NCBI RefSeq assembly: GCF_014334135.1
Contig: NZ_CP060497.1
Location: forward strand, 2,852,001 to 2,916,000
Origin: Olivibacter sp. SDN3
GTDB lineage: Bacteria > Bacteroidota > Bacteroidia > Sphingobacteriales > Sphingobacteriaceae
DNA length: 64,000 nucleotides
Reading direction: 5' to 3'
Below, piece after piece: positions 16,017 through 29,229 of this stretch. Every line of letters starts with the position of its first letter. Position 1 is the first letter of the stretch. The notes below the pieces were generated by a model. The model searched no databases. It was not told the origin of the DNA and saw nothing but the letters and a program-made list of their open reading frames with translations. Both the position numbers and the translations under genes were made by a program.

Positions 16017-16310
16017 CTAACTGTTTTCTTTTATCAAACGTTCGAGTTCATCCGCAGAAAAAATACCGGACTGTCTCCACTTGATTTCCCCTTTGCGAAA
16101 AATAATCAATGTAGGTACACCGCGTATTGCCATATCTGATGCGACCTTGGGGTTTTTGTCTACGTCAATCTTGATGATGGTCGCATTTTCTCCGACACGT
16201 CCTTTCAGTTCATCGAGTATCGGTGCCTGCATTTTGCAGGGGCCGCACCATTCGGCAAAAAAATCCACCAATACAGGCTTATCCCCGCTTATTATGTCTT
16301 GGAATGTCAT
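16017..16310 (-). CDS. thioredoxin (1)
   Basis: This 97-aa cytoplasmic thioredoxin has the classical WCGPC active site (Cys22, Cys25) and a GVPT cis-proline loop. It has no signal peptide. Its ATG overlaps the stop of the DUF6132 gene (ATGA), so the two are translationally coupled. It can reduce disulfides or persulfides made by the sulfur enzymes around it and feed electrons to DsbD (inference). A second single-domain thioredoxin is encoded at 29999. Confidence 0.92.
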   Translation of the reverse strand: MTFQDIISGDKPVLVDFFAEWCGPCKMQAPILDELKGRVGENATIIKIDVDKNPKVASDMAIRGVPTLIIFRKGEIKWRQSGIFSADELERLIKENS

Positions 16311-16519
16311 GCTGCTTTTGTTTTATCTTTTCTAAAAGAGGATAAAAGTAGACCACCCATTACCCCGCCATACAATGTACTGTTCAAGGGGTTTGATGTA
16401 ATGGCACAGGTTCCGGTGTTACAACCGATGAAATGCCAGTAGGCGAATCCTGCTATTGCCCCTGCGATGATTCCAAACACTATCAGACCGTATTTATTGA
16501 TTGTTTTTCCCCTTTTCAT
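16307..16519 (-). CDS. DUF6132-like small membrane protein
   Basis: This 70-aa protein has two hydrophobic segments around an IGCNTGTCAITSNP stretch with two cysteines, the pattern of DUF6132 proteins. It is the first gene of the unit that runs through thioredoxin, DoxX, DsrE and the SoxB-like protein. A GTAAC-N4-GTTAC operator lies 74 bp upstream. DUF6132 proteins often stand near thioredoxins and YeeE/YedE genes in Bacteroidetes. The function is unknown. Confidence 0.8.
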   Translation of the reverse strand: MKRGKTINKYGLIVFGIIAGAIAGFAYWHFIGCNTGTCAITSNPLNSTLYGGVMGGLLLSSFRKDKTKAA

Positions 16520-16592
16520 ATTGCATTAATACTAAGTGCTTAATGGCACATGTTTAATCATGTAAAGTTCGGTAAATTATTACAAGTGTTCT

Positions 16593-16606
16593 GTAACTAA
16601 AGTTAC
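16593..16606 (-). promoter_or_regulatory. Crp/Fnr-type operator A, upstream of DUF6132
   Basis: GTAACTAAAGTTAC is a perfect inverted repeat (GTAAC/GTTAC, 4-bp spacer). Its centre is 33 bp from GAACTTTA on the minus strand, a weak match to the -7 element. It belongs to the same set as the sites at 23248, 25394, 25471 and 29216. It is the weakest of the five for promoter match, but the palindrome itself is perfect. Confidence 0.65.
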
Positions 16607-16617
16607 AATAGGTGATT

Positions 16618-17334
16618 TTACCCTCCTGTCTTGAAATTGTACATGAAGTTAAATGACATATTGTTTTCGTGAAGCCACGTTTCCCCTTTTAGCGGTAACC
16701 TATCGATATACAGGTATCCCAACCTAAGCTTTACCTGCGACTTTGGTCTATATTCCAGTTGTGTGCCGATCCGGTTGTGGTCAACAAAATGCCCACGGTC
16801 TACACCCGCCACGTTGGCCAGAAATTCGTTAAAGACTAAAATCGAAAAGTTCTCAAAACCATACTGTACCCCAATGCGATCCCTTACCCTCGTTACATCA
16901 TCCGTACCATTGTTAAAAATCCGGTATTCGGCCGCTCCACGGTTAATGAACTCAAACCCTCTGCCGATTTCCTTTTTCCAAGTCAAAGCGGCAGAGAACC
17001 GAAACTCACGGCTTGGCTTGAAGATATGATCTCCTTGCTGGGTGACGACCCGATAATGCTTGAAGTAGGCAAAAGGGGAAACCGAAACGAAAAGCCGATC
17101 ACTGAACCGATAGCGGGTCCAGTTCCTAACGGATTGCATCAGGTCATGCCGAAAAGGCATCTTGGTGTCAAAGCCACTCTGCCGCCTATATTGGAACTCC
17201 AGGTCACTTTCCAATTTTTCACTTATCCCATATCCCAACGTTCCCCTTAACCAAACATTGTGGCGTGTCTGACCAAATGAGTACACCGCCCATACAAGTG
17301 ATATACATAAAATATAGAGACCTTTCGTCGTCAT
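16618..17334 (-). CDS. DUF2490-like outer membrane beta-barrel protein
   Basis: The protein is about 238 aa from the ATG at 17332-17334, chosen because it gives a good signal peptide ending at SFGQ; the open frame extends to 17379. The rest alternates hydrophobic and polar residues with aromatic strand ends (WLRGTLGYGIS, FNRF-like turns), typical of DUF2490 porin-like proteins. It is 13 bp from the YeeE/YedE gene and may let sulfur compounds through the outer membrane (inference). Confidence 0.8.
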   Translation of the reverse strand: MTTKGLYILCISLVWAVYSFGQTRHNVWLRGTLGYGISEKLESDLEFQYRRQSGFDTKMPFRHDLMQSVRNWTRYRFSDRLFVSVSPFAYFKHYRVVTQQGDHIFKPSREFRFSAALTWKKEIGRGFEFINRGAAEYRIFNNGTDDVTRVRDRIGVQYGFENFSILVFNEFLANVAGVDRGHFVDHNRIGTQLEYRPKSQVKLRLGYLYIDRLPLKGETWLHENNMSFNFMYNFKTGG

Positions 17335-17347
17335 TTTCCCAACGCTC

Positions 17348-17842
17348 CTAATGCGGCAACCTCTCCCTAAAATACCCATATACCCATGTACCGATCACGG
17401 CACTCAACAGCGTTACGGCAATGACCGTTGCGCCTGTTCCGATCTGTGCAAACAGTGGTCCCGGGCAAGCTCCGGTCATCGCCCAGCCAAAACCGAAAGT
17501 CAACCCTCCGTAGATCTGCCCCTTGTTGAATTTCTTTGGCGAAATGGTGATTTTTTCGCCATGAATGGTCTTTATATTGAATTTTTTGATCAACCAGACT
17601 GAAATGATCCCGACCACTACGGCACTGCCTATAATCCCATACATGTGAAAAGACTGCAAGCGGAACATCTCCTGTATCCGGAACCAACTGATGACTTCGG
17701 ATTTTACAAACAGGACACCAAAAATTATCCCGACAAACATGTATTTAAGGTTGTAGTACCATTTATGCTCCAACTGGCTTTCATTGACACACATCGCGTC
17801 CTGCGATCTCTTCTCCAACTCGGTATTTGTTGTATTGTTCAT
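17348..17842 (-). CDS. YeeE/YedE-type sulfur transporter, half 1
   Basis: This 164-aa membrane protein has a hydrophilic N-terminus (about 30 residues) and four predicted helices. The signature is TGACPGPLFAQ with Cys126, the pore cysteine motif of YeeE/YedE thiosulfate and sulfur-compound importers. Full-length YeeE has twice this length; the partner half is encoded directly upstream at 17861. Such split pairs are common. Import of thiosulfate or a related sulfur compound is inferred from the family. Confidence 0.85.
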   Translation of the reverse strand: MNNTTNTELEKRSQDAMCVNESQLEHKWYYNLKYMFVGIIFGVLFVKSEVISWFRIQEMFRLQSFHMYGIIGSAVVVGIISVWLIKKFNIKTIHGEKITISPKKFNKGQIYGGLTFGFGWAMTGACPGPLFAQIGTGATVIAVTLLSAVIGTWVYGYFRERLPH

Positions 17843-17860
17843 TTTTTGTGTTCTTATATT

Positions 17861-18424
17861 CTAAAGTGATAATATATAGGGCAAAATCAAGTTTGCCATG
17901 ACAAAGCCCCCGATCATAAAGCATATCGTAGCCACGAGTGAAGGCCATTGAAGATTTGCCAGACCCATGATGGCGTGCCCACTGGTACAGCCACCGGCAT
18001 ACCGGGTACCGAACCCCACCAGAAAACCTCCCACGACGATCAGTAGGAAGCCACGGGGCGTAAGCAGCGATTGCCAGTTAATGACATCTTCCGGGATAAG
18101 GCTATTGTAACTGGTAATGCCGTAACCTGCCAGTTCATCGACCAGTTCCGGATTCACTTCAATTGGATTTGGATTGGCCAAGAGTAGTGCAGCCAATATA
18201 CCGCCAAGAAAAATACCGAATACAAAAAACAGGTTCCATGCTTCCTTTTTCCAGTCGTAATGGAAGAAAGGTATTTTCGCCGGCATACAGGATGCACAGA
18301 TGTGGCGAAGGGATGAGCTGATCCCAAAAGATTTATTGCCCAATATCAATAGGGCAGGTACTGTAAGTCCGACCAATGGCCCTGCGATGTACCACGGCCA
18401 CGGTTCTTTTAAAAATTCCAACAT
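17861..18424 (-). CDS. YeeE/YedE-type sulfur transporter, half 2
   Basis: This 187-aa membrane protein has the second YeeE/YedE signature, YAGGCTSGHAIMG with Cys146. An extra cysteine pair (HICASC, Cys43 and Cys46) is near the N-terminus. It is the partner of the protein at 17348 and is 18 bp away. It probably forms the transporter with that protein. Confidence 0.87.
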   Translation of the reverse strand: MLEFLKEPWPWYIAGPLVGLTVPALLILGNKSFGISSSLRHICASCMPAKIPFFHYDWKKEAWNLFFVFGIFLGGILAALLLANPNPIEVNPELVDELAGYGITSYNSLIPEDVINWQSLLTPRGFLLIVVGGFLVGFGTRYAGGCTSGHAIMGLANLQWPSLVATICFMIGGFVMANLILPYILSL

Positions 18425-18446
18425 GTTCAGATTACTTTATTTGCTA

Positions 18447-18683
18447 TTATTTTACTTCCTCGTAGTTCACATCCTCTGTTATACGGCGTTTTGGTCTTTG
18501 CTGAGGTACTTCGCAACCACCAATGCCGCACATGCTGATATTGAAAAGGGGCATGAGGGAAAAGATGGCTCCAAGCCCTACCAGCATCCATTGTGAATCA
18601 TGTATACCCTGTACGACGATAACAATACCTATGATGAGCCTCAGCGTGCGCATCAACGTCCATTTTTTAATATAGTCTCTCAT
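18447..18683 (-). CDS. DUF2892-like small membrane protein
   Basis: This 78-aa protein has a hydrophobic hairpin (residues about 14-50) and MCGIGGCEVPQ with two cysteines after it, then a basic tail. DUF2892/YgaP-like membrane segments are often linked to rhodanese domains, and a rhodanese gene is 3 bp upstream. A membrane partner for sulfur transfer is inferred. Confidence 0.75.
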   Translation of the reverse strand: MRDYIKKWTLMRTLRLIIGIVIVVQGIHDSQWMLVGLGAIFSLMPLFNISMCGIGGCEVPQQRPKRRITEDVNYEEVK

Positions 18684-18686
18684 TTC

Positions 18687-19022
18687 TTATTTGATACTGT
18701 TTACCAACTTATTTAAACTACGCCAACCACCGCCATTGAAGACCTGTTGGAAACCATGCTTTTCAAGGATGCGTTTTGCGCTTCCACTGCGGTTTCCGCT
18801 CTGGCAGAAAACCACTATGGCACCTTTGCCTTTAAAATTATGTAGGCTTGTTTCCAGTTCATTTAATGGGATGTTTACGGCGTTTTTCACTGAACCGTCA
18901 GAAAACTCCTGCGGTGTCCTTACATCCACGAGGAATGCACCGTTTTTAATTTCATCAGCTAACCGGTCGTTCTCTGTATCGGCCAGCTTATCTTTGAATA
19001 ATCCGAACATACTATCGTTCAT
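18687..19022 (-). CDS. single-domain rhodanese
   Basis: This 111-aa protein has one rhodanese domain. The active-site loop is CQSGNRS with Cys73. There is no signal peptide, so it is cytoplasmic and transfers sulfane sulfur between thiosulfate or persulfide donors and thiols. Its start codon abuts the stop of the MBL-rhodanese gene at 19023. Confidence 0.9.
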   Translation of the reverse strand: MNDSMFGLFKDKLADTENDRLADEIKNGAFLVDVRTPQEFSDGSVKNAVNIPLNELETSLHNFKGKGAIVVFCQSGNRSGSAKRILEKHGFQQVFNGGGWRSLNKLVNSIK

Positions 19023-20513
19023 TTATTTTACTACTTCGTTTTCCTGTTCTTGCCACTCGTTCATTCCACCCGAATAGACCGTGATGTTATCAAAGCCATG
19101 ATCCCTTAAAATCGAATGGGCTGCGGCAGCACGTACACCGCTCTGGCAATGGATAATCACCTTTTTGTCCTTACTGATTTTATCGAGGTTCTCCGCCAGC
19201 GCAGCCAGTGGCACATTCTCCGCTCCGGCGATATGTCCATCGGCAAACTCCCCTGTCATACGGACATCGACGACCTGCACGTCATCTTTATCCTTGATCG
19301 ACTTGAATGTATCTATATCCACGCGGGCGGTCGTCTGCAACGGTTTTCCGATACTGTTTATATCTTCAATGTATCCATAGATGTTGTCCATACCGATGCG
19401 CATCAGTTTTCGGGTCAGATGCTCTATTTTCCCATTATCCGCTACCAATACCATTTGCTGCGTGTAATCGACCAATGATCCCATCAGTGTAGAGAAGGTT
19501 TTATTTCCCTCGATATGGAGACTGCCCGGTAGGTAACCTGCCGCTACTTTCTCTTTATTGCGTGCATCCACTATCAAGAGTTTGTTTTGCTGTGCTTGCT
19601 GAAACGCATCTTTCATCAGTTTTGGATGCTGGGGGACTTCGATGAGCAAAGGCCTGTCCACCTTGTTCAGATGTTTCATGACCGCAAAATAATTTGGCGG
19701 TTCGGGCTGGTCTTCCAATATATACTTGACAAAGCCAGCTTCATCATCCTTAAACTGGAATGCGCGGTTCAGCAACTTCTCTTCTTTAAGGGTCGATTGC
19801 GGTATATTGCTCAACGTCTTGCCACAGAACGATCCTGCGCCGTGACCGGGCCATATCTCCAATTCATCCGGTAAATGCAGGAAGTTTTGGATAGACCTAT
19901 AGAGCTGTCTTGCACTCTCTTCCTGCGTGTCTTCCTGTCCGGCGGCTTTTTCCAAGAGGTCTGGTCGCCCCACGTCTCCGACAAAGATGAAATCACCTGT
20001 AAGGGCTTTTTGGGGGGTATTGGAAACGGATGGATCGGTCAATAGGAAAGTGATGCTTTCCGGTGTGTGACCGGGGGTGTGCAGCACTTCCAGTTTTATC
20101 TTCCCAACGTTGATGATTGATCCCGCCCTTAGTGGTGTATGTGCAAATTCGTACTGCCAATCATCTCCACCCTCGGCCGAAAGCAATAGTTCTGCACCGG
20201 TAGCGGCCACCAACTCACGCGAACCGCTCAGAAAGTCCGCATGGATATGGGTTTCCGTTACACGGGTGATGTTCAGGTTGTTTGCCTTTGCCATTTCGAG
20301 GTACGTGTCGATATCACGCTTCGGGTCGATGACAATGACCTCACGGGTCTCCATATCGCCTACGACATAGCTTGCCTGTGCAAGACTCTCATCAAAGACC
20401 CGCTCAAAGAACAGTTTTTGTGCGAACGCACCGCCTGTTTGGAGCAATAACAGGATAGTAGCGACCGAAAAGGCCAACCATCCACGGTTGCTATCATTGT
20501 TTTTTCTTACCAT
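19023..20513 (-). CDS. exported MBL-fold persulfide dioxygenase-like protein with rhodanese domains
   Basis: This 496-aa protein begins with a signal or anchor (residues about 13-31). The metallo-beta-lactamase domain shows THIHADFLSGS (His89, His91, Asp93), HTPGHTPES and GDFIFVGDVGRPDLLEKA, the pattern of ETHE1-type persulfide dioxygenases. Two rhodanese domains follow. The first lacks the catalytic Cys, and the second has HCQSGVR with Cys456. It is the exported counterpart of the interrupted cytoplasmic gene at 20526-23167, with which it shares its whole domain layout. Oxidation of persulfide to sulfite is the family role; the periplasmic location is inferred from the signal. Confidence 0.88.
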   Translation of the reverse strand: MVRKNNDSNRGWLAFSVATILLLLQTGGAFAQKLFFERVFDESLAQASYVVGDMETREVIVIDPKRDIDTYLEMAKANNLNITRVTETHIHADFLSGSRELVAATGAELLLSAEGGDDWQYEFAHTPLRAGSIINVGKIKLEVLHTPGHTPESITFLLTDPSVSNTPQKALTGDFIFVGDVGRPDLLEKAAGQEDTQEESARQLYRSIQNFLHLPDELEIWPGHGAGSFCGKTLSNIPQSTLKEEKLLNRAFQFKDDEAGFVKYILEDQPEPPNYFAVMKHLNKVDRPLLIEVPQHPKLMKDAFQQAQQNKLLIVDARNKEKVAAGYLPGSLHIEGNKTFSTLMGSLVDYTQQMVLVADNGKIEHLTRKLMRIGMDNIYGYIEDINSIGKPLQTTARVDIDTFKSIKDKDDVQVVDVRMTGEFADGHIAGAENVPLAALAENLDKISKDKKVIIHCQSGVRAAAAHSILRDHGFDNITVYSGGMNEWQEQENEVVK

Positions 20514-20820
20514 AGTTTGTTTTTTTTAGATTACCGGGTTTCCGTTTTCTTTCCATTCTTTCATACCACCGGAATAGTTCTTGACGTTTTCAAAACCGTT
20601 TTTCTTTAACAGGGAATACGCAATGGCTGAACGGTCTCCGGCCTGGCAATGGATGACGATCTGTTTATCTTTCTTTATTTTATCGAGATTCTGTTGCAGT
20701 GTGCCGACAAATACGTGTTCCGCACCCTCAACATGGCCTCCTTTATATTCTTCTTCGCCACGCACGTCAACGATCTGGACATCTTCTTTTCCGACATAGC
20801 CTTTGAATGTTTCGATGTCG

Positions 20821-20823
20821 ATG
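20821..20823. repeat. 3-bp target duplication ATG, left
   Basis: ATG immediately precedes the left terminal repeat of the IS at 20824. The same three bases follow the right end at 22074-22076. A 3-bp duplication is usual for the IS3 family. Confidence 0.85.
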
Positions 20824-20849
20824 TGGAGTTGCTACCTTTAAAGCGAGAC
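20824..20849 (+). repeat. IS left terminal inverted repeat
   Basis: The repeat starts TGGAGTTGC and ends GCGAGAC. It pairs with the right terminal repeat at 22048-22073 at 17 of 26 positions, with the best match in the outer nine bases and the inner GGAGAC/GCGAGAC part. Confidence 0.8.
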
Positions 20850-20880
20850 AGATTTAGATAGTAATTTTAAATTTGTAGAA

Positions 20881-21180
20881 ATGCATAGAAAATTTGATGA
20901 TTCGTTTAAGACCATGGCGGTCGATTTGAGCGTTGTTAAGGGGTCTGTAGCCGATGTAGCTAAGGAATTAGACATAGACCCCAGTTTGCTCAGTAAGTGG
21001 CGTAGAAACCCACGTTATAATGGGAATAAAGTTTTACCTGACAATCCTAAAATTAGCCCAGAGGAACAGGAGTTGAGAATTTTGCGTAAAAAATTAAGAG
21101 AAACAGAATTAGAGCGTGATATATTAAAAAAGGCCATAGCCATCTTCTCCAGGGGAGACGGTCCATATACCGGTTCATAA
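20881..21180 (+). CDS. IS3-family transposase OrfA, copy 2
   Basis: This 99-aa HTH and coiled-coil protein starts 57 bp inside the IS. Near the end, codons TTA AAA AAG (21124-21132) form the canonical A-AAA-AAG slip site in the zero frame. After a -1 shift the frame stays open to OrfB, reading through VYSVEKMCEVLNV, so an OrfAB transframe transposase is expected. OrfA alone should act as a regulator of transposition. Confidence 0.95.
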   Translation: MHRKFDDSFKTMAVDLSVVKGSVADVAKELDIDPSLLSKWRRNPRYNGNKVLPDNPKISPEEQELRILRKKLRETELERDILKKAIAIFSRGDGPYTGS

Positions 21181-21212
21181 AGGCGAACCGAGAGGTATAT
21201 TCCGTAGAGAAG

Positions 21213-22043
21213 ATGTGCGAAGTATTGAACGTTAGTAGCAGTTGTTTTTATCGTTGGCTGATTTCTCCGGAGTCCCCTAGTGAACAGCGAAGTAAAGCAC
21301 TTCTGGATAAAATACAGCAGGTACACAGTGACAGTAAGTATATCTATGGTAGTCCAAGGATAACTGCAGAGCTGCATAAAAAAGGTGAAATGGTATCAAG
21401 AAGCTATGTTGCAAGGTTGATGAAGAAACATGGGATACGAAGTAAGGTCAAGAAAAAATATAGGGTGACCACAGATTCGAGCCATAGCTATGGGATAGCT
21501 GAAAATCTCCTCCAAAGAGATTTTTCAGCGGATGCCCTGTCACAGAAATGGGTTGGCGACATTACCTATATCCATACTGACAAAGGGTGGCTTTATCTAA
21601 CAACAGTCATTGATCTGGCGGACAGAAAAGTCATCGGATGGTCTTTGAGTACTGATATGACCGCTAAAAACACTTCTGTAGAAGCCATCAGGATGGCTAT
21701 TAAAAACCGGCGTGTCAAAGATGGACTGATCTTCCATTCGGATAGAGGGATCCAATATGCCTGCGATGAATTCAGGGAGGTAATTGTAGAAAACAGGATA
21801 CTTCAAAGCATGAGCAGAAAAGCGAATTGCTGGGACAATTCAGTTGCTGAGAGCTTTTTCAAGACATTAAAGGCTGAAATGGTCTATCATAGAAAATTCA
21901 TGGATCAGCAGTCAGCTAAATTGGAGATCTTTGGATACATTGAAGGATTTTATAACACCAAAAGAACACATTCTGCTCTGGGTTATAAGACACCCAGACA
22001 GATCGAAGAAATGCTATTGGAAAAAGAAAAAATGGCAGCATAA
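21213..22043 (+). CDS. IS3-family transposase OrfB (DDE integrase core)
   Basis: The 276-aa frame as listed starts at ATG 21213; it is open without stop back to the slip site in orfA, so the native product is probably the fused OrfAB. It has an HTH_21-like segment (residues about 30-85) and an rve core with the DDE triad: Asp in WVGDITY, Asp in IFHSDRG, and Glu in NCWDNSVAESFF. The Tyr/Lys-rich C-terminus with YNTKRTHSALGYKTP is typical. It appears intact. Confidence 0.95.
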   Translation: MCEVLNVSSSCFYRWLISPESPSEQRSKALLDKIQQVHSDSKYIYGSPRITAELHKKGEMVSRSYVARLMKKHGIRSKVKKKYRVTTDSSHSYGIAENLLQRDFSADALSQKWVGDITYIHTDKGWLYLTTVIDLADRKVIGWSLSTDMTAKNTSVEAIRMAIKNRRVKDGLIFHSDRGIQYACDEFREVIVENRILQSMSRKANCWDNSVAESFFKTLKAEMVYHRKFMDQQSAKLEIFGYIEGFYNTKRTHSALGYKTPRQIEEMLLEKEKMAA

Positions 22044-22047
22044 AAAA

Positions 22048-22073
22048 GTCTCCTATTTTTAGTTGCAATTCCA
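22048..22073 (+). repeat. IS right terminal inverted repeat
   Basis: It begins GTCTCC and ends GCAATTCCA, the complement of the left end. The orfB stop at 22041-22043 is 4 bp before it. Confidence 0.8.
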
Positions 22074-22076
22074 ATG
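22074..22076. repeat. 3-bp target duplication ATG, right
   Basis: ATG follows the right end of the IS directly and matches 20821-20823. Deleting the IS and one ATG restores the split gene in frame. Confidence 0.85.
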
Positions 22077-23247
22077 ATATCTGCGGTATGGAGTTCCAAG
22101 CCAAGGCTTTCCACATCGGAGATGTAGCCATACACGTTGTCCATACCGATGCGCATCAGTTTCCGTGTAAGGTCGTCGATCTGCCGGTCAGAAGCAACCA
22201 GTACAAACTGCTCTTGGTAATCCAGCAGCCAACCTACCCAAGTAGAGAATGAATTGTTGCCCTGTACATTCATGCTTCCGGGAATGTAACCTGCCGCGAA
22301 ATCAACTTTATTACGGGCATCTATTACTTTTAGACCGTTACGGTAGGCCGTGAGGAACTCGTCCTTGCTCAGCTTGGGGTGTTTGGGGACTTCGACCAAC
22401 AACGGACGGGGAACTTTGTTCAAGTGCTTCATCACGGCGAAATAGCGTGGCGGTTCGGGCTGCCCCGCTAAAAGATATTCGACAAAACCCTGTTCATCAT
22501 TTTCATATTGGAACGCCCAATTCCGGATCTTTTCGTAACCGACCGTCGAACTCGGCACGGCTCCCAGTGCTTTCCCACAGGCCGACCCTGCACCATGTGC
22601 AGGCCATACCTGTACATATTCGGGCAATTCGGCAAATCGCTGAAGCGACTGGTACATCTGTTTGGCTCCTTTTTCCTGCGTGCCGATGATGCCCGCGGCT
22701 TTCTCCAATAGATCCGGACGGCCAATATCGCCAACGAAGATAAAATCTCCTGTAAAGACCATGACCGGTTTATCCGTAGCGGGATGGTCTGTCAAAAGGA
22801 AACTGATACTTTCGGGTGTATGTCCCGGCGTATGCAATACCTCCAGGGTAAGATTGCCGACCGTAATCTTATCCCCATGTTTCAACCCGTTGTGGGGGAA
22901 CTGGTATTGCCAGTCTTCACCGCCCTCATCGGATAGGTACATCTCGGCACCGGTTGCGGCGGCGAGTTCCCGCGAGCCACAAAGGTAGTCGGCATGAATA
23001 TGGGTCTCGGCAATATGGGTGATCTTTAGGTTGTTCTCTTTTACAATTTGCAGGTACACATCTATATCACGCTGTGCATCGATGACGATGGCAATTCCTT
23101 TGGCCTGGCAGCCGATTACGTAACTGGCCTGTGCCAAACTTTTATCATAAACATGTTGAAAAAACATACTATTTTATATTTAAGGGTTTCTATTTAAAAT
23201 TTTCTTATCGCTTTATGCAAAGATGTTGCTTTGTTTTTCCCTGTACG

Positions 23248-23261
23248 GTTACATTAGTTAC
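23248..23261 (-). promoter_or_regulatory. Crp/Fnr-type operator B, upstream of the cytoplasmic MBL-rhodanese gene
   Basis: On the minus strand the site reads GTAACTAATGTAAC: one perfect half-site and one with a single mismatch. Its centre is exactly 33 bp from CATCTTTG (minus strand, 23218-23225), a near match to the Bacteroidetes -7 element TAnnTTTG. This puts the operator at about -40 from the expected transcript start, with the start codon at 23167. It would drive the MBL-rhodanese, rhodanese and YeeE/YedE run. Confidence 0.65.
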
Positions 23262-23273
23262 ACAAGCTGTCAA

Positions 23274-24530
23274 TTAAATGTCTTTTCCCCTCATCATCTT
23301 ATTCCAGTACATATAGGGGAGCATATATTTTTTTAGCAGCCACAATCTCCAATGCTCCTTGTCACTATCGTTGATCAACATGTATTTCAGCATGGGATCG
23401 GGCGTAAATTCATTTTTGTAGTTGAACTCTGCCAAAGCCATCTTCCCATAACCGGTTACCAAAGGACATGAGGAATATCCCATATAGGACTTGTTGCTGG
23501 CCTCTTTTCCTTTGATCAGTGCAAGGATATTGTCAACAACGACCGGTACCTGCTTGCGGATGGCTGCTCCGGTTTTGGCAGTGGGGACACCTGTGGCATC
23601 ACCAAGACCCAAAATGTTCGGGTATTTTTTGTGCTGCAAACTGTTTACATCGACATCCAACCAGCCATCTTCATTGGACAGCCTGGATTCGCGGATAAAC
23701 GGTGGTGCAACCTGTGGTGGTGCGAGATGCAGAAAATCAAACGGAACTTCAACAAGACCGCCATCAGCGACAGAACTATCTATAATCGGAGATGAAGGTC
23801 TGTTTGCATCTTGTGGCGTGTTGTCTTTAAAATAGACAACTTTACGTTCCGGATCAATCTTTATAGGGGTGTGGAACAGGCGTAGATCGATGCCGTACCG
23901 ATTGATAACTTTCATCAAGGTATCGGCGATGGTCTTGACGGCAAAAATAACCGTTCCCGGTGTGGCGAATACGACATTCGTTTTGTCCAAAATCCCTTGT
24001 TTTTTGAAATGGTCGGCCGCAAGGTACATGGCCTTTTGGGGTGCTCCGCCACATTTGATTGGTGTTGCGGGCTGTGTAAATATGGCGTTGCCTCCCTTGA
24101 ACCTCTGCAACAGTTTCCATGTGTATTCGGGATCGATATAGTTACTGCATACCACCCCTTTGTCCAATGCTTCCGACAATCCCTCTATCAACGACATATC
24201 ATAGATAAGCCCCGGTGCGAGTACGAGATAGTCATAGGAAAAATTACCGCTGTTTTCTGTTGAAACAACGTTCTTGTCACCCCAGACACCGGTCACTTTA
24301 TCTTTGATCCAATCGACTCCTTTGGGGATGAGGGTTGCTTCCTGCCTCTTTGTTTTTTCCATTTTATACGCACCTGCTCCGACCAATGTAAATGCAGGTT
24401 GGTAGTAGTGTATTTTCGAGGGTTCGATGATGGCGATCTTGAATCCTTTTTTCATCCGTTGCAGTTTGGCTGCGGCCATTATACCTGCCGTTCCGCCTCC
24501 AACTATCAGTATTTGAAAATGCTTTTCCAT
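23274..24530 (-). CDS. sqr: sulfide:quinone oxidoreductase-like flavoprotein
   Basis: The protein is 418 aa from the ATG at 24528-24530, chosen because the Rossmann motif IVGGGTAG starts 9 residues later; the open frame extends to 24596. SQR oxidises sulfide and passes electrons to quinone. The two expected redox cysteines are present: Cys160 in IKCGGAPQK and Cys355 in SSCPLVTGY, the second motif matching that of mitochondrial-type (type II) SQR as I recall it. The C-terminal FAD contact is LGDATGVPTAKTG. It probably docks on the membrane surface. It is 16 bp from the TauE gene and likely shares its promoter. Confidence 0.9.
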   Translation of the reverse strand: MEKHFQILIVGGGTAGIMAAAKLQRMKKGFKIAIIEPSKIHYYQPAFTLVGAGAYKMEKTKRQEATLIPKGVDWIKDKVTGVWGDKNVVSTENSGNFSYDYLVLAPGLIYDMSLIEGLSEALDKGVVCSNYIDPEYTWKLLQRFKGGNAIFTQPATPIKCGGAPQKAMYLAADHFKKQGILDKTNVVFATPGTVIFAVKTIADTLMKVINRYGIDLRLFHTPIKIDPERKVVYFKDNTPQDANRPSSPIIDSSVADGGLVEVPFDFLHLAPPQVAPPFIRESRLSNEDGWLDVDVNSLQHKKYPNILGLGDATGVPTAKTGAAIRKQVPVVVDNILALIKGKEASNKSYMGYSSCPLVTGYGKMALAEFNYKNEFTPDPMLKYMLINDSDKEHWRLWLLKKYMLPYMYWNKMMRGKDI

Positions 24531-24546
24531 AATGTTGATGTTTATT

Positions 24547-25341
24547 TTATAACCAGATTTCTTTAATGAGGATATATATGCCCATGACCAGCACAAACCA
24601 ACCGAATGCGGGTTTGAGTTTGTTTCCGTCTATTTTCTTTGACAGTGCCATCCCGATAAAAATCCCGATAATGGCAAATACGGTTATGGCCAGTAGAAAT
24701 GTCCAATCCATTGGGGTTTCATTGTTTTCTCCGAAAAAGCCGATCAGTGATTTTGCCGCAATGATGACCAATGAAGTACCAACGGCTTCTTTCATCGGTA
24801 ATTTGCTCAGCAGGACGAGGGCAGGAATGATGAGGAACCCTCCACCTGCACCGACAAGACCTGTTAAGACACCTACCACGGCTCCCTCGATCAGTATAAG
24901 GGGATAATTAAACCTCTGCTGTTGGGAGACTTCCACCACCACTTCTTTGTCCTTTTTAATCATGCTAAAGGAAGTGACGATCATCAAAATGGCGAACAGT
25001 ACCATGAGCAGCATGCTTCTGGTAAAGATGAAATCGCCGGAAGTGAATATGACGGCCGGAATGGCGGGAACGATATAGGCCCTGGTGAGATATACCGCCG
25101 CTATTGACGGGATACCGAATACAACTGCTGTCCGAATATTGACCAGTCCCTTTTTAAAATAGGAGAATGACCCTGCGATACTCGTACTGCCTACTATAAA
25201 CAGTGAATAGGCGGTAGCCATAACGGCATCTATGCTGAAAAGATATACCAGGACAGGCACAGTAAGGATACTGCCCCCTCCACCGATGAGACCAAGTGCA
25301 ACACCTATTAAAATGGACGACATATAGCCTGCTATTTCCAT
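24547..25341 (-). CDS. TauE/SafE-family sulfite or sulfonate exporter
   Basis: The protein is 264 aa from the ATG at 25339-25341. The frame is open to 25500, but the extra 53 residues are translations of operators C and D (a repeated TNVTD) and are not part of the protein. It has eight or so membrane helices. The family signatures are ALGLIGGGGSILTVPVLVYL near the start and GLVGAGGGFLIIPALVLLS in the second half. In this context it would remove sulfite or another product of persulfide oxidation (inference). Confidence 0.87.
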   Translation of the reverse strand: MEIAGYMSSILIGVALGLIGGGGSILTVPVLVYLFSIDAVMATAYSLFIVGSTSIAGSFSYFKKGLVNIRTAVVFGIPSIAAVYLTRAYIVPAIPAVIFTSGDFIFTRSMLLMVLFAILMIVTSFSMIKKDKEVVVEVSQQQRFNYPLILIEGAVVGVLTGLVGAGGGFLIIPALVLLSKLPMKEAVGTSLVIIAAKSLIGFFGENNETPMDWTFLLAITVFAIIGIFIGMALSKKIDGNKLKPAFGWFVLVMGIYILIKEIWL

Positions 25342-25393
25342 ATAATTCTTATTATTTATTACACAAATCTGCACCAATTCAAAAGGCTGGTCA

Positions 25394-25407
25394 GTTACAT
25401 TTGTTAC
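25394..25407 (-). promoter_or_regulatory. Crp/Fnr-type operator C, upstream of tauE-sqr
   Basis: On the minus strand it reads GTAACAAATGTAAC, one mismatch from the perfect inverted repeat. The centre is exactly 33 bp from CAGATTTG (25364-25371, minus strand), a TAnnTTTG-like -7 element. The start codon of tauE is at 25341, giving a leader of about 20 nt. Confidence 0.7.
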
Positions 25408-25470
25408 ACAAGGGGAGTTTTTGGCTTTTTTCTTTAGAACGGTCTCCAATTTGTCATGAAATCCTGTGTC

Positions 25471-25486
25471 GGTAACATTTGTTACC
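25471..25486 (+). promoter_or_regulatory. Crp/Fnr-type operator D, upstream of the Crp/Fnr gene
   Basis: GGTAACATTTGTTACC has perfect 7-bp arms around TT. On the plus strand its centre is exactly 33 bp from TAGTTTTA (25508-25515), a near match to TAnnTTTG. No matching element is found at that spacing on the minus strand, so this site seems to serve the regulator gene and suggests autoregulation. The expected leader is about 125 nt. Confidence 0.7.
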
Positions 25487-25645
25487 AACCCATTTGGCAT
25501 TAATAGTTAGTTTTACGACGCGTATTAAATTGTAATGCTTTTACCATAATATGATGTCCCAAAGGCTAATATTGATGAACAAAGCGTTATATTGTTATGT
25601 GTAGTATAAATTTGAATTTTTAAGAAAGGATGGCAATAATTGGAG

Positions 25646-26296
25646 ATGTTAGGTATGAATAATGAGATTATCGAGGAAGCGTATGGCTCCATTTTCGAGG
25701 CGGCTTTGATCGAAGAGATTGCCTCGGTAGCCAAGCTGGTTGAATTTAAAGAAGGAGAAGTACTGATCGACATCGGAAAGTACATCAAGACCATGCCCTT
25801 GCTCATCAACGGGGCGATAAAAATCATGCGCGAGGACTTTGATGAGGGAGAATTGCTGCTGTATTTTATTGAAAAGGGAGATACCTGTGCCATGACCCTT
25901 GCGTGCTGTATGGGAGACAAGAAAAGCGAGATCCGGGCGGTGGCGGAGACCGATGGGCTGGTGGCCATGATCCCGGTGCACTATATGGAATCGTGGTTGG
26001 GCAAGTACCAGACGTGGAGGGCTTTCGTATTCATGAGCTACGACAACCGGTTTAACGAGATGTTGGCTGCGATTGACAATATTGCGTTCATGAATATGGA
26101 CAAACGCCTTTACCATTATCTTTTGGAGACAGGTAAGATCAACTCTTCCCAAACCATAAACAAGACCCACCAAGAGATTGCCTACGAACTGAACAGCTCG
26201 CGCGTGGTGGTTTCACGGCTTTTGAAAGCGTTGGAAAATGAGGGCAAGATCAAACTGAACAGGAACAACATCGAACTATTGAAAGTGGAGGAATAG
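25646..26296 (+). CDS. Crp/Fnr-family transcription regulator of the sulfur island
   Basis: The protein is 216 aa from ATG 25646. A TTG at 25640 and an ATG at 25655, with GGAG ahead of it, are other possible starts. It has an N-terminal cNMP-binding-like beta-roll (residues about 30-115), a dimer helix, and a C-terminal winged HTH (about 172-205) with recognition helix SSRVVVSRLLKALE. The motif TCAMTLACCMG puts three cysteines (81, 87, 88) in the effector domain. There is no Fnr-type N-terminal four-Cys iron-sulfur motif. The flanking operators and divergent tauE-sqr suggest that it activates the sulfur genes. The signal may be a persulfide or other thiol modification (inference). Confidence 0.88.
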   Translation: MLGMNNEIIEEAYGSIFEAALIEEIASVAKLVEFKEGEVLIDIGKYIKTMPLLINGAIKIMREDFDEGELLLYFIEKGDTCAMTLACCMGDKKSEIRAVAETDGLVAMIPVHYMESWLGKYQTWRAFVFMSYDNRFNEMLAAIDNIAFMNMDKRLYHYLLETGKINSSQTINKTHQEIAYELNSSRVVVSRLLKALENEGKIKLNRNNIELLKVEE

Positions 26297-26359
26297 AAAA
26301 TTCCGTTCGTCGGAACTACTTCATGATATTTTAGATAAAAACTTAGAAAAGGAACGAGC

Positions 26360-27466
26360 ATGAAAACAGGATTATTTTTTACCAAAATATTTGCTTTGAT
26401 CTTCATTAACGCCTGCAATGCAGCGAATAGTGATAACTTTATACTGACCGGACATATTGCCAATGCCGATGAGTTAAATAGCATTATTCTGTATGAAGGG
26501 AGCACATTTGTCGATTCGATAGCCGTGGACAAAGACGGTAATTTTTATTTGGAAGGAACGGCTTCGGAGCCTACACTGTACGAATTGGCCGTGGAGCAAC
26601 AGACGTTTATGCTGGTCATGGAAAACGGTGAAAAATTGGAGTTGAATATTGATTTGACCACACCGGAGCAATATACCGTAAAAGGATCTGAAACATCAGC
26701 TAAACTCAAAGAGCTTACCGGAATGCGTGACAAATTCCAAGCGCACCAAATGAATCTGCAAAGTGAATTTGAACAACGTCTTGATAATGGTGAAGATCGG
26801 GGCGTCGTCCAAAATGAACTCATAGCAAAAAATGACCAATATACTGCCGAACTATCAGAACAGGTTTTGCAGTTTTCACGGGATAACGAAGATAACCTGG
26901 CGGGATTCTTCGGGATGTTGGTTTTGTATTCGGTGGACCCTACCGGACACGAAGAAACCTTGGTCGGATATGCAGAAAAAGCACGAGGTCTGTTTCCCAA
27001 CAATGAGACCGTTCAGTCATTCGCCGCGCACATGGAAGAGATAAAACCGTTGAGTATCGGTCAGACGGCACCGGACTTTAGCTCTATAACACCAGAAGGC
27101 AAGGAGGTCAAACTCTCTGATCTGAGGGGGCAATACGTTCTATTGGACTTTTGGGCTGCATGGTGTACACCGTGTCGCCATGAAAACCCTAATATAGTAA
27201 GCCAATACCATGATTTTAAAGACCGTGGCTTTACAGTCCTGGGTGTTTCTTTGGACAGAGACCGTGATGCATGGCTTCAAGCCATTGAAGACGATAAACT
27301 GACGTGGACACACGTATCGGAACTTAAAATGTGGGATAGCGAGGCCGGTCGCTTATATAACATCACGGCCATTCCTGCATCCTTTATGATCGATCCCGAT
27401 GGAAAGATCATAGGAAAGAATTTGCGCGGGCCTGCTTTGAAGCAATTTTTGGAGAAAACTTTATAG
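26360..27466 (+). CDS. TlpA-like thioredoxin with N-terminal DUF4369
   Basis: This 368-aa exported protein has a hydrophobic N-terminus with FINAC (Cys19, possible lipobox). A DUF4369 beta-rich domain spans about residues 25-120, a helical linker reaches about 220, and the thioredoxin/AhpC-like domain carries WCTPC and AIPASF. This domain order is common in Bacteroidetes. It lies 63 bp after the regulator and is co-directional. Substrates are unknown; involvement in periplasmic thiol or persulfide reduction is inferred. Confidence 0.88.
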   Translation: MKTGLFFTKIFALIFINACNAANSDNFILTGHIANADELNSIILYEGSTFVDSIAVDKDGNFYLEGTASEPTLYELAVEQQTFMLVMENGEKLELNIDLTTPEQYTVKGSETSAKLKELTGMRDKFQAHQMNLQSEFEQRLDNGEDRGVVQNELIAKNDQYTAELSEQVLQFSRDNEDNLAGFFGMLVLYSVDPTGHEETLVGYAEKARGLFPNNETVQSFAAHMEEIKPLSIGQTAPDFSSITPEGKEVKLSDLRGQYVLLDFWAAWCTPCRHENPNIVSQYHDFKDRGFTVLGVSLDRDRDAWLQAIEDDKLTWTHVSELKMWDSEAGRLYNITAIPASFMIDPDGKIIGKNLRGPALKQFLEKTL

Positions 27467-27472
27467 CAAAAA

Positions 27473-27496
27473 ATGGGTGCTTGATCAAGCACCCAT
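27473..27496. terminator. bidirectional terminator between TlpA-DUF4369 and DsrE
   Basis: ATGGGTGCTTGA and TCAAGCACCCAT form a perfect 24-bp palindrome that starts 7 bp after the TlpA stop. An A run lies to the left and a T-rich stretch to the right. The genes on either side converge on it. Confidence 0.8.
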
Positions 27497-27525
27497 ACCA
27501 TTCTTTATTACAAAAAATAAAAATA

Positions 27526-27993
27526 TTACGGTTTAATCACCACCCATCCCTGTGAAGCACGGATAATCAATTCACCATTTCCGCTGGGCACATAAGGGAT
27601 AAATCCCAAAATATCTTCTTTCGTCAAGTTCCTTTCTCGTAAGGAGTTTTCACATTGGGCAACTTGAACGCCTTTTGAGATCATATCTTTCAGATCATCT
27701 ATATACGGCGAACTTTTTAGCATCACATCGGTACCACCAGAAAAGGTCACGAGTTCGATGGTCAGCTTCCCGATAAGCCTTTTGTCTGTTAAGACATTTC
27801 TGATGTTTCTAAATGTTTTTTTAACGATTTCGGGATTATTTGTGTCCAATTGAAAAATGGCGTTGTACTCTGTTTTTGTGGCTTCCGCACCTTTAAACTG
27901 AAGGTTTTTCTGCAACTCTGGACTCACTTCCTGCCCAATGGCAAATTGCCATCCTAAGCCCAGCAAGAATAAGGCGATCAATAGTTTTTTCAT
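27526..27993 (-). CDS. secreted DsrE-like sulfur-carrier protein (2)
   Basis: This 155-aa protein has a signal peptide (residues 1-20) and a DsrE-like fold with one conserved cysteine, Cys114, in VAQCENSLRERN. It is the most diverged of the three DsrE-like proteins here. It lies 17 bp after the tsdA-like gene and is co-directional, so it may take sulfur from or deliver thiosulfate to that enzyme (inference). Confidence 0.82.
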   Translation of the reverse strand: MKKLLIALFLLGLGWQFAIGQEVSPELQKNLQFKGAEATKTEYNAIFQLDTNNPEIVKKTFRNIRNVLTDKRLIGKLTIELVTFSGGTDVMLKSSPYIDDLKDMISKGVQVAQCENSLRERNLTKEDILGFIPYVPSGNGELIIRASQGWVVIKP

Positions 27994-28010
27994 ATCTACA
28001 AAATTAAAAA

Positions 28011-29039
28011 TTAAAAATTGTAAGGACCATATTTGTGCTGTTCAGGTGATATACTGTCTGCAAACGGTGGGTAGGCCGAATCTTTTGGTTTTAGTGTGAG
28101 GTCTGGGTAATCTTTTTCCTTATTGGCCTTGATGGGCCTGTCAAATGAATTGATATAAGCCGCTACGTCATACACTTCTTCGTCGGTCAAGATAGGATTT
28201 AGCGGGTCGACACCTAACGGCATATTCCCTTTGATGAATTTTGAGGCCGTGAGCATGCGCCCCATGCCTGCACCGTCATTGTAGGAATCATGGCCCCAAA
28301 GTGGGGGATAAATGTATCCCTCGGACTTTTGTGTATCGTCTTTCCATATTCCCTGTCCGTCCTGTTGGTGGCAGGCCACACAATGGGCTTGAAAAACCTG
28401 CTCACCATTGCGGAGATTGGCTTTCCTGTCGGGAGGTGTAAATTCGACAAAGCCCTGGCCATCTATTCTGTCTCCAATTCTCACATTTTTGCTAAGGTGT
28501 GCCATGTAACTTACTATGGCCACCATTTCTTCACTATCCTTTGGTAGCTTCTGTCCGTTTAGGCTTCTTTCAAAACAGCCGTTGATCCTATCTTCCAATG
28601 TGGCTACTTTACCGTCTCTTCCACTGAACATGGGAAATATACCAGTCAGACCCACATAAGATCCTGCATAAGCTTTGGTTCCTCCGTCAAGGTGACAACT
28701 GTTGCAGGATAAATGGTTTCCGGAATAGACTTCTCCATATTCGTTGTTCGGACCAAGGTATTTGGCCGTTTCCATGATTAGTTTTTGACCAAAAGCGGCA
28801 GATCGGCCCTCCTCGGTGTCGGGGAAATCCTCCATGACAAAATCTTCAACATGGCTAATGAATGTCCTGTCGTCCCCAGATCCGTCGGTATCCGGAGCCA
28901 GACGGTAATCATTCCAATTAAACAGGTGGAAAAGTGCCATCACGATCAGCAACAAAAACAGTACGCCCATCCACAGTGATCTTGTAGACAGTCGGTTCAC
29001 CTCTCTGAGCAGGTCTTGTTCAACTTTTTGATTTTCCAT
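28011..29039 (-). CDS. tsdA: TsdA-family diheme thiosulfate dehydrogenase
   Basis: This 342-aa membrane-anchored protein (helix at about residues 22-40) has two c-type haem motifs, CNSCH (Cys112, Cys115, His116) and CVACH (Cys220, Cys223, His224). Sequence around them matches TsdA: TLEDRINGCFERSLNG after the first haem, and YPPLWGHDSYNDGAGM after the second. Cys155 in INGCFERS is a candidate for the unusual axial Cys ligand of TsdA haem 1. TsdA joins two thiosulfates to tetrathionate or does the reverse. Operator E lies 177 bp upstream. A short C-terminal extension after about residue 305 follows the family core. Confidence 0.88.
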   Translation of the reverse strand: MENQKVEQDLLREVNRLSTRSLWMGVLFLLLIVMALFHLFNWNDYRLAPDTDGSGDDRTFISHVEDFVMEDFPDTEEGRSAAFGQKLIMETAKYLGPNNEYGEVYSGNHLSCNSCHLDGGTKAYAGSYVGLTGIFPMFSGRDGKVATLEDRINGCFERSLNGQKLPKDSEEMVAIVSYMAHLSKNVRIGDRIDGQGFVEFTPPDRKANLRNGEQVFQAHCVACHQQDGQGIWKDDTQKSEGYIYPPLWGHDSYNDGAGMGRMLTASKFIKGNMPLGVDPLNPILTDEEVYDVAAYINSFDRPIKANKEKDYPDLTLKPKDSAYPPFADSISPEQHKYGPYNF

Positions 29040-29215
29040 ATTCGTTTATTTGAACTTTCTTAGGGCTATCTAAAAAAGCTATGGTACCATAACATTTATT
29101 TTTCATCGGTGGGTAACCTCCGACGGTTTATACATTAGCGATAATCATCAAAAAAGAAATTTTTCCTTTCTGATTCTCATGGCGATAAAATTATGGGATA
29201 TCGAAAATCGAGTCA

Positions 29216-29229
29216 GTAACATTTGTTAC
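29216..29229 (-). promoter_or_regulatory. Crp/Fnr-type operator E, upstream of tsdA
   Basis: GTAACATTTGTTAC is a perfect inverted repeat identical to the core of operator D. The centre is exactly 33 bp from TAATTTTA on the minus strand (29186-29193), a near match to TAnnTTTG. This gives a leader of about 140 nt before the tsdA-like gene. The region 29040-29329 holds no gene. Confidence 0.72.

Follow-up and report, generated by a model that had tools for sequence, protein, structure and literature searches.

Five operator and promoter pairs in a sulfur gene island

We analyzed a 64,000-nucleotide stretch of the Olivibacter sp. SDN3 genome (contig NZ_CP060497.1, positions 2,852,001 to 2,916,000), hereafter the window, in which the gene of a Crp/Fnr-type regulator lies in an island of sulfur genes. 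Five copies of the dyad GTAAC-N4-GTTAC, three of them exact and two with one mismatch, are located within 13 kb of this island (Table 1). The first-pass annotation, made from the same letters, had listed these five dyads, and we found all of them, the one upstream of the regulator gene sitting a base later (25472 instead of 25471). Each dyad is followed by an octamer resembling TAnnTTTG, the −7 consensus of Bacteroidota; the available part of the source for this consensus also reports a TTTG around −33 in B. fragilis and no −33 motif found in F. johnsoniae (PMC7366714). At all five sites the octamer starts 29 bases past the dyad center, which leaves 22 bases between the two elements (gap 22) and a center-to-center distance of 33 bp, exactly the spacing that had been proposed, with four good octamers and a weaker fifth. 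When gaps of 0 to 59 were allowed, a gap shared by four of five sites at a score of 5 of 6 arose in 0 of 20000 Markov resamples of the flanking sequences and in 0 of 50000 five-point sets drawn at random from the window. With up to two mismatches the dyad is mildly enriched in the window (32 occurrences against a mean of 22, a number reached by 4 of 100 shuffles), so it is the near-exact sites that carry the evidence. The dyads at 16593, 23248, and 29216 are intergenic. The reading frame of tauE extends without a stop as far as an ATG at 25500, beyond the dyads at 25394 and 25472, and these two are intergenic if tauE starts at 25341. We chose this start on two grounds: the TauE domain of the protein so defined sets in at residue 9, and the open reading frame (ORF) of the Parapedobacter soli homolog stops short of the site.

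The sequence GTWACN4GTWAC occurs 20 times in the whole genome, a single contig of 6.12 Mb (G000), and five of these occurrences are in the island (binomial P of 6e-10 for 5 of 20 in 12.6 kb, an interval itself derived from the finding). Fourteen of the other 15 fall within mechanically called ORFs of at least 60 aa and the remaining one is not close to any ORF start; none of the 15 has, at the proper spacing, an octamer that matches more than 4 of 6 positions. We then searched for the dyad followed at gap 22 by the octamer nAnnTTTR, allowing up to two mismatches, and obtained 36 matches. Thirty-one of them have two mismatches, and the five with none or one all belong to the island. In the same scan, 67 matches were obtained for the control, the reversed pattern. 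Near-exact pairs of dyad and octamer are thus confined to the five island promoters and, judged by promoters of this form, the regulon of the Olivibacter genome appears to be the island itself.

Table 1. Operators, octamers and genes of the sulfur island, in window coordinates (octamer scores count the six fixed positions of TAnnTTTG).
Feature	Coordinates	Strand	Evidence and remarks
Operator dyad GTAACTTTAGTTAC	16593..16606	-	exact; upstream of DUF6132-trx-DoxX-DsrE-like-phosphoesterase
-7-like octamer GAACTTTA	16563..16570	-	4/6; belongs to 16593 dyad
Operator dyad GTAACTAATGTAAC	23248..23261	-	1 mismatch; upstream of MBL-rhodanese to YeeE/YedE unit
-7-like octamer CATCTTTG	23218..23225	-	5/6; belongs to 23248 dyad
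Operator dyad GTAACAAATGTAAC	25394..25407	-	1 mismatch; upstream of tauE-sqr if tauE start is 25341
-7-like octamer CAGATTTG	25364..25371	-	5/6; belongs to 25394 dyad
Operator dyad GTAACATTTGTTAC	25472..25485	+	exact; upstream of Crp/Fnr gene (putative autoregulation)
-7-like octamer TAGTTTTA	25508..25515	+	5/6; belongs to 25472 dyad
Operator dyad GTAACAAATGTTAC	29216..29229	-	exact; upstream of tsdA-dsrE
-7-like octamer TAATTTTA	29186..29193	-	5/6; belongs to 29216 dyad
Crp/Fnr regulator	25646..26296	+	ORF open from TTG 25640; PF13545 9.7e-11, PF00027 4.1e-8
TauE/SafE exporter	24547..25341	-	PF01925 1.1e-44; start inferred
Sulfide:quinone reductase (SQR)-like flavoprotein	23274..24530	-	PF07992; NCBIfam SQR_III_seleno 232.8 bits, below 525 cut-off
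N-terminal piece of split metallo-beta-lactamase (MBL)-rhodanese gene	22074..23167	-	insertion ends; best match of 8 downstream proteins of relatives
Insertion sequence (IS), presumed IS3 type	20824..22073	+	1250 bp, ATG at both flanks, imperfect terminal inverted repeats; rve PF00665 7.2e-23, HTH_21 3.9e-18
Second MBL-fold/rhodanese protein	19023..20513	-	PF00581 1.3e-29, PF00753 5.3e-11
Rhodanese	18687..19022	-	PF00581 5.2e-16
78-aa protein	18447..18683	-	no Pfam match; homologs in relatives (BLAST), see text
YeeE/YedE half	17861..18424	-	PF04143 3.6e-19
YeeE/YedE half	17348..17842	-	PF04143 1.8e-9
DUF6132 protein	16307..16519	-	PF19628 3.9e-6
Thioredoxin	16017..16310	-	PF00085 1.2e-26
TsdA-like cytochrome c	28011..29039	-	PF21342 44.1 bits, cut-off 27
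DsrE-like protein	27526..27993	-	PF02635 2.7e-8

Spacing and target genes in other Bacteroidota

We next turned to relatives of the regulator, keeping as loci the best 80 of the 117 recovered by the protein scan (from Sphingobacterium, Parapedobacter, Empedobacter, Flavobacterium, Capnocytophaga, Maribacter, Lutibacter, and others). Near these genes we counted 130 exact dyads, spread over 55 loci, against a mean of 1.46 and a maximum of 15 for 59 other arrangements of the half-site letters in the same loci. We took sites with up to one mismatch, those of the window among them, assigned each an orientation from the next ORF start, and collapsed near-identical ones, which reduced 224 oriented sites to 179. 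An octamer with at least 5 of 6 matches starts 29 bases past the dyad center at 121 of these 179 sites and 28 bases past it at 19, while each other distance from 5 to 89 accounts for 0 to 8. Moreover, the left half-site is preceded by a T in 87% of the 134 sites whose octamer matches at least 4 of 6 positions. In the comparison with related islands that the earlier reading had proposed, both the dyad and its spacing are therefore kept.

The same geometry emerged when whole genomes were searched irrespective of the regulator. A search of 200 genomes for the dyad with TAnnTTTG behind it at gaps of 7 to 37 yielded 86 pairs, 44 of them at gap 22 and 7 at gap 23, with 0 to 5 at each of the remaining gaps; a pair at one gap or another is present in at least 110 of 395 genomes of the class, a set that overlaps the 200. 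The gap-22 pair is statistically linked to the regulator: leaving out the Olivibacter genome, it is present in 26 of the 51 genomes with a relative of at least 165 bits, in 4 of the 71 with a weaker one, and in 3 of the 77 with none at 1e-30 (26/51 against 7/148, Fisher 1e-12, kinship ignored). We retrieved 43 of the 44 gap-22 sites, 3 of the 7 at gap 23, and 22 distinct ones of the 35 at other gaps. Forty of the 43 gap-22 sites lie outside open frames of 150 codons, against 4 of the 22 at other gaps, and an ORF start is found 5 to 50 bases past the octamer in 41 of the 43. The gap-22 pair thus appears to mark promoters, while the pairs at other gaps look like chance matches inside genes for the most part. 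Taken with the genome-wide scan, the rearranged dyads, and the resampling, this histogram of gaps allowed us to reject a chance origin of the pattern.

The spacing is not entirely uniform. In seven Lutibacter and Lutimonas genomes, considering gaps 21 and 22 alone and setting aside 9 pairs at other gaps, we found 12 pairs at gap 21 (32 bp) and 5 at gap 22 (33 bp), against none and 26 in six comparison genomes; a fourteenth genome (G514) had no pair. The fixed distance of 33 bp put forward in the first-pass annotation is thus widely kept, while these seven genomes more often have 32 bp. Lutibacter regulators lacking sites at their own genes had been considered as a counter-example, which we discarded once the whole-genome search found pairs elsewhere in those genomes, mostly at gap 21. 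Gap-21 loci include L215 and L216 of Lutibacter and L221 and L234 of Lutimonas, as well as L218, L229, L230, and L233; the first gene encodes a rhodanese in L215 and L216, an NrfD/ferredoxin-type protein in L221, and an MBL-rhodanese in L234, and the first ORF of L218, L229, L230, and L233 equals that of L215 in length. Separately, among the matches listed for two other genomes (G232 and G369), the dyad stands at a 15-base gap from TAAATTTG, nearly identical on many contigs and often close to contig ends, as if it were part of a multicopy element.

The genes below the operators are mostly sulfur genes. The 173 site-orientations near the regulator, in which, as among the 179 and 134 sites above, the window site at 25394 forms one row and faces the regulator instead of tauE (the mechanical tauE ORF runs to 25500), lead to 172 distinct downstream proteins, near-duplicates included. 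Of these, 103 cluster with proteins of the island: 39 MBL-rhodaneses or rhodaneses, 24 TauE, 20 YeeE, 10 SQR, 5 regulators, 4 TsdA, and 1 DUF6132. Representatives of other clusters are outer-membrane efflux, DinB/mycothiol-transferase-like, DUF983, HemN (at sites whose octamers reach just 4/6), fatty-acid hydroxylase, YgaP-like membrane, TetR, cytochrome bd, PF03601 transporter, and DsrE proteins, along with proteins lacking a Pfam family. Genome-wide, 28 of the 43 first genes at gap-22 sites match island proteins by BLAST. Eleven of these 28 encode homologs of the 78-aa protein, mostly in one genus, and this protein may be a core part of the system. By Pfam, the 43 include 6 TauE, 6 OEP, 5 Sulf_transp, and 4 rhodanese genes; the outer-membrane efflux (OEP) genes stand behind the promoters of L138, L250, L251, L264, L265, and L266. 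No sulfur family was found by Pfam among 13 first genes at other gaps (ribosomal S5, thymidine kinase, dehydrogenase, and similar), which were judged by Pfam, while those at gap 22 were also compared with the island by BLAST.

Within the Olivibacter island itself, the first gene downstream of the 23248 promoter is split by an insertion that we take to be a member of the IS3 family. A further piece of the broken frame lies at about 20526–20823, and we assigned the gene to the MBL-rhodaneses from the ends of the insertion and the proteins of relatives, not from Pfam; in Parapedobacter soli, a 463-aa ORF follows the counterpart of the 23248 site. Since the insertion splits the first gene, the rhodanese and YeeE/YedE genes beyond it may have been cut off from this promoter. 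The proposed unit from MBL-rhodanese to YeeE/YedE below 23248 is interrupted in the Olivibacter genome.

The Crp/Fnr protein

The protein encoded at 25646 belongs to the Crp/Fnr family (PF00027, 33.5 bits with a cut-off of 27.5; PF13545, 41.9 bits with a cut-off of 27), and scores 46.9 bits against the NCBIfam CRP equivalog, whose cut-off is 266. Its recognition helix reads SRVVVSRLLK and its cysteines are located at positions 83, 89, and 90, numbered from 25640. Among 81 aligned sequences, from which locus L096 was excluded, S-R-V-V-x-S-R is invariant, as is the valine (V189) aligned to E181 of CRP; Cys83 is present in all 81, Cys89 in 61, Cys90 in 59, and Cys83 stands alone in five sequences. 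In the Lutibacter group, Ser89/Ala90 take the place of the later two and another cysteine follows downstream in the chain, and Cys89/Cys90 are absent from the regulators of gap-21 loci; as this group is a single clade, a link between gap 21 and the changed cysteines is indistinguishable from common ancestry. A distant relative (L323, 35% identical) keeps RVVISRLLK, and its genome (G147) has a gap-22 site upstream of a rhodanese gene. We also considered a paralog as the binder, comparing 30 length-filtered ORFs from 38 Crp/cNMP loci of the Olivibacter genome: the SRVVVSR helix and the cysteine motif occur only in L287, which is the regulator itself, and S-R-V-V-x-S-R is absent from the 29 other ORFs.

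G71 and E72 are residues of the cAMP cassette of CRP. In our alignment the motif CAMTLxCC falls on this cassette, where G71 lines up with Ala84 and E72 with a gap. The AlphaFold2 model (mean pLDDT, the predicted local distance difference test, of 85.8; predicted template modeling score of 0.66) places a short helix of residues 86–89 there, and two cysteines are likewise present in the corresponding stretch of 3dv8, the best relative of known structure. The protein thus resembles E. coli CRP in its homologous fold and helix-turn-helix and in a dyad predicted to lie near −40, the arrangement of E. coli CRP class II promoters, and differs in an operator with GTAA for GTGA and in cysteines at the place of the cassette residues. 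CRP positions 180 and 181 are described as co-varying with operator bases in the available part of PMC1274295, and the valine at the E181 position fits GTAA for GTGA by this rule; with the same operator as HcpR2, which has Pro at 181, it would extend the published co-variation.

A putative class II activator and its proposed signal

The five sites are probably class II promoters of one dedicated sulfur regulon, activated by the Crp/Fnr protein, and the signal that we propose is reactive sulfane sulfur. The gap-22 peak fixes the phase of the dyad to the core element and would put it at about −40, the class II position suggested for the neighboring Crp/Fnr protein in the first-pass annotation, which the genome-wide scan and the related islands support. 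From these sequence comparisons we infer binding, activation rather than repression, and the signal. A dimer bound over the −33 region would contact RNA polymerase carrying the Bacteroidota primary sigma factor and help it to start at the nearby TAnnTTTG-like element, switching on the regulator's own gene, tauE, sqr, the MBL-rhodanese, rhodanese, and YeeE/YedE genes, tsdA, dsrE, and thiol-redox partners. Persulfide arising from sulfide and thiosulfate would modify the cysteines, Cys83 with Cys89/Cys90, and the modified protein would turn on the export, oxidation, and transfer of sulfur. A related case is the Crp of A. baumannii, which is persulfidated after sulfide exposure; there, according to the available part of PMC7315123, the cysteine lies elsewhere, opposite the ligand pocket, and the functional effect is not known, while the modification of the Olivibacter protein is a prediction.

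The operator itself is already known. The consensus of HcpR2, also a Crp/Fnr protein, is GTAACnnnnGTTAC in what is available of PMC1274295, and the island dyads match it; in addition, the dyad stands at gap 22 upstream of hcp (Prismane) in G192 (L129 1-1464). An operator specific to sulfur is thereby ruled out, and as a mark of the sulfur regulon the dyad holds for the targets in the island and in relatives while also serving HcpR2 and preceding hcp. In G152 (L130 384-620), of the same genus as G192, the pair precedes a DUF2492 gene. Neither genome has a regulator match at 1e-6, so more than one Crp/Fnr protein would seem to use this geometry; of their Crp-like proteins we recovered only L332, whose recognition helix is not of the SRVV type. 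The shared consensus and the hcp site would be explained if the island genes belonged to the regulon of an HcpR-type nitrosative-stress regulator, a protein for which heme binding is reported in B. thetaiotaomicron (PMC13370916, seen in part). We find this very improbable, because HcpR2 controls hcp and PF03063 has no match in the Olivibacter genome, in a search whose control was positive in 5 of 14 genomes, because HcpR2 has Pro at 181 where all 81 sequences have Val, and because the regulator gene lies inside the sulfur island with a site of its own. On the valine and the missing hcp, sequence features weighed without a tree, we rejected HcpR membership of the regulator.

The position of the dyad alone is silent on the sign of regulation, and the protein could instead be a repressor that sits over the −33 region and keeps polymerase out as long as sulfide is absent. 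The cysteine-based sulfide sensors SqrR and BigR (ArsR) and CstR (CsoR) are indeed named as repressors in the available part of PMC9774590; they resemble the present case in controlling sulfur-detoxification genes and in sensing through cysteine pairs, here predicted, and differ in fold. Repression is nevertheless unlikely, as the base-exact spacing (121/179) is needed for contact with polymerase and not for blocking it. Less easily set aside, if still somewhat doubtful, is that the same activator responds to oxygen, redox state, or another ligand, with the sulfur genes as one output among respiratory ones: cytochrome bd is among the targets in some relatives and Cys89/90 are not universal. 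The five Olivibacter promoters, on the other hand, each stand before a sulfur or thiol unit or before the regulator gene, and FNR carries N-terminal cysteines for its [4Fe-4S] cluster, unlike the window protein, whose three cysteines include none at the N-terminus.

Several observations weigh against a dedicated sulfane-sulfur activator. The octamer of the 16593 dyad is weak, and an exact gap-22 pair occurs in only 26 of the 51 genomes with a good relative; the strict TAnnTTTG pattern lowers the yield of the survey, since it misses sites that include all five of the window. Seven genomes with a weaker or no relative carry the pair, many sites come from close kin, so that their counts are not independent, and the names of some targets do not point to sulfur (OEP efflux in 6 of 43, fatty-acid hydroxylase, cytochrome bd, Hcp, HemN). 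TTG at −33 (spacer 19) was found in none of the 134 sites, which says little, because about 2 were expected by chance and no such motif was found in F. johnsoniae either. Residues 81–90 of the model have low confidence (mean pLDDT 57) and, because Cys89/Cys90 are missing in about a quarter of the relatives, the signal may be read by Cys83 alone or may be a different one.

Promoters of Bacteroidota are unlike those of the sigma-70 type and, to our knowledge, few activators of this phylum are understood; here a putative activator, an operator, and a core-promoter geometry are found together in one short stretch. The original observation is confirmed and proves broader than first stated. Among the matches listed in our search of the open-licence literature by title and start of abstract, we found no description of this sulfur regulon, of the spacing fixed across genera, or of the cysteine-bearing regulator. 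It is conceivable, at somewhat less than even chances, that many Bacteroidota have a Crp/Fnr activator which detects persulfide or polysulfide by means of cysteines at the place of the cyclic-nucleotide cassette and switches on sulfide and thiosulfate metabolism from a rigidly spaced class II operator. Such a protein would be, so far as we searched the literature, the first with the Crp/Fnr fold to serve as a dedicated sensor of sulfane sulfur. If this reading of the cysteines is true, the sulfane-sulfur sensors known so far would be joined by one of a new fold, and the timing of sulfide and thiosulfate use by many environmental Bacteroidota would be explained.

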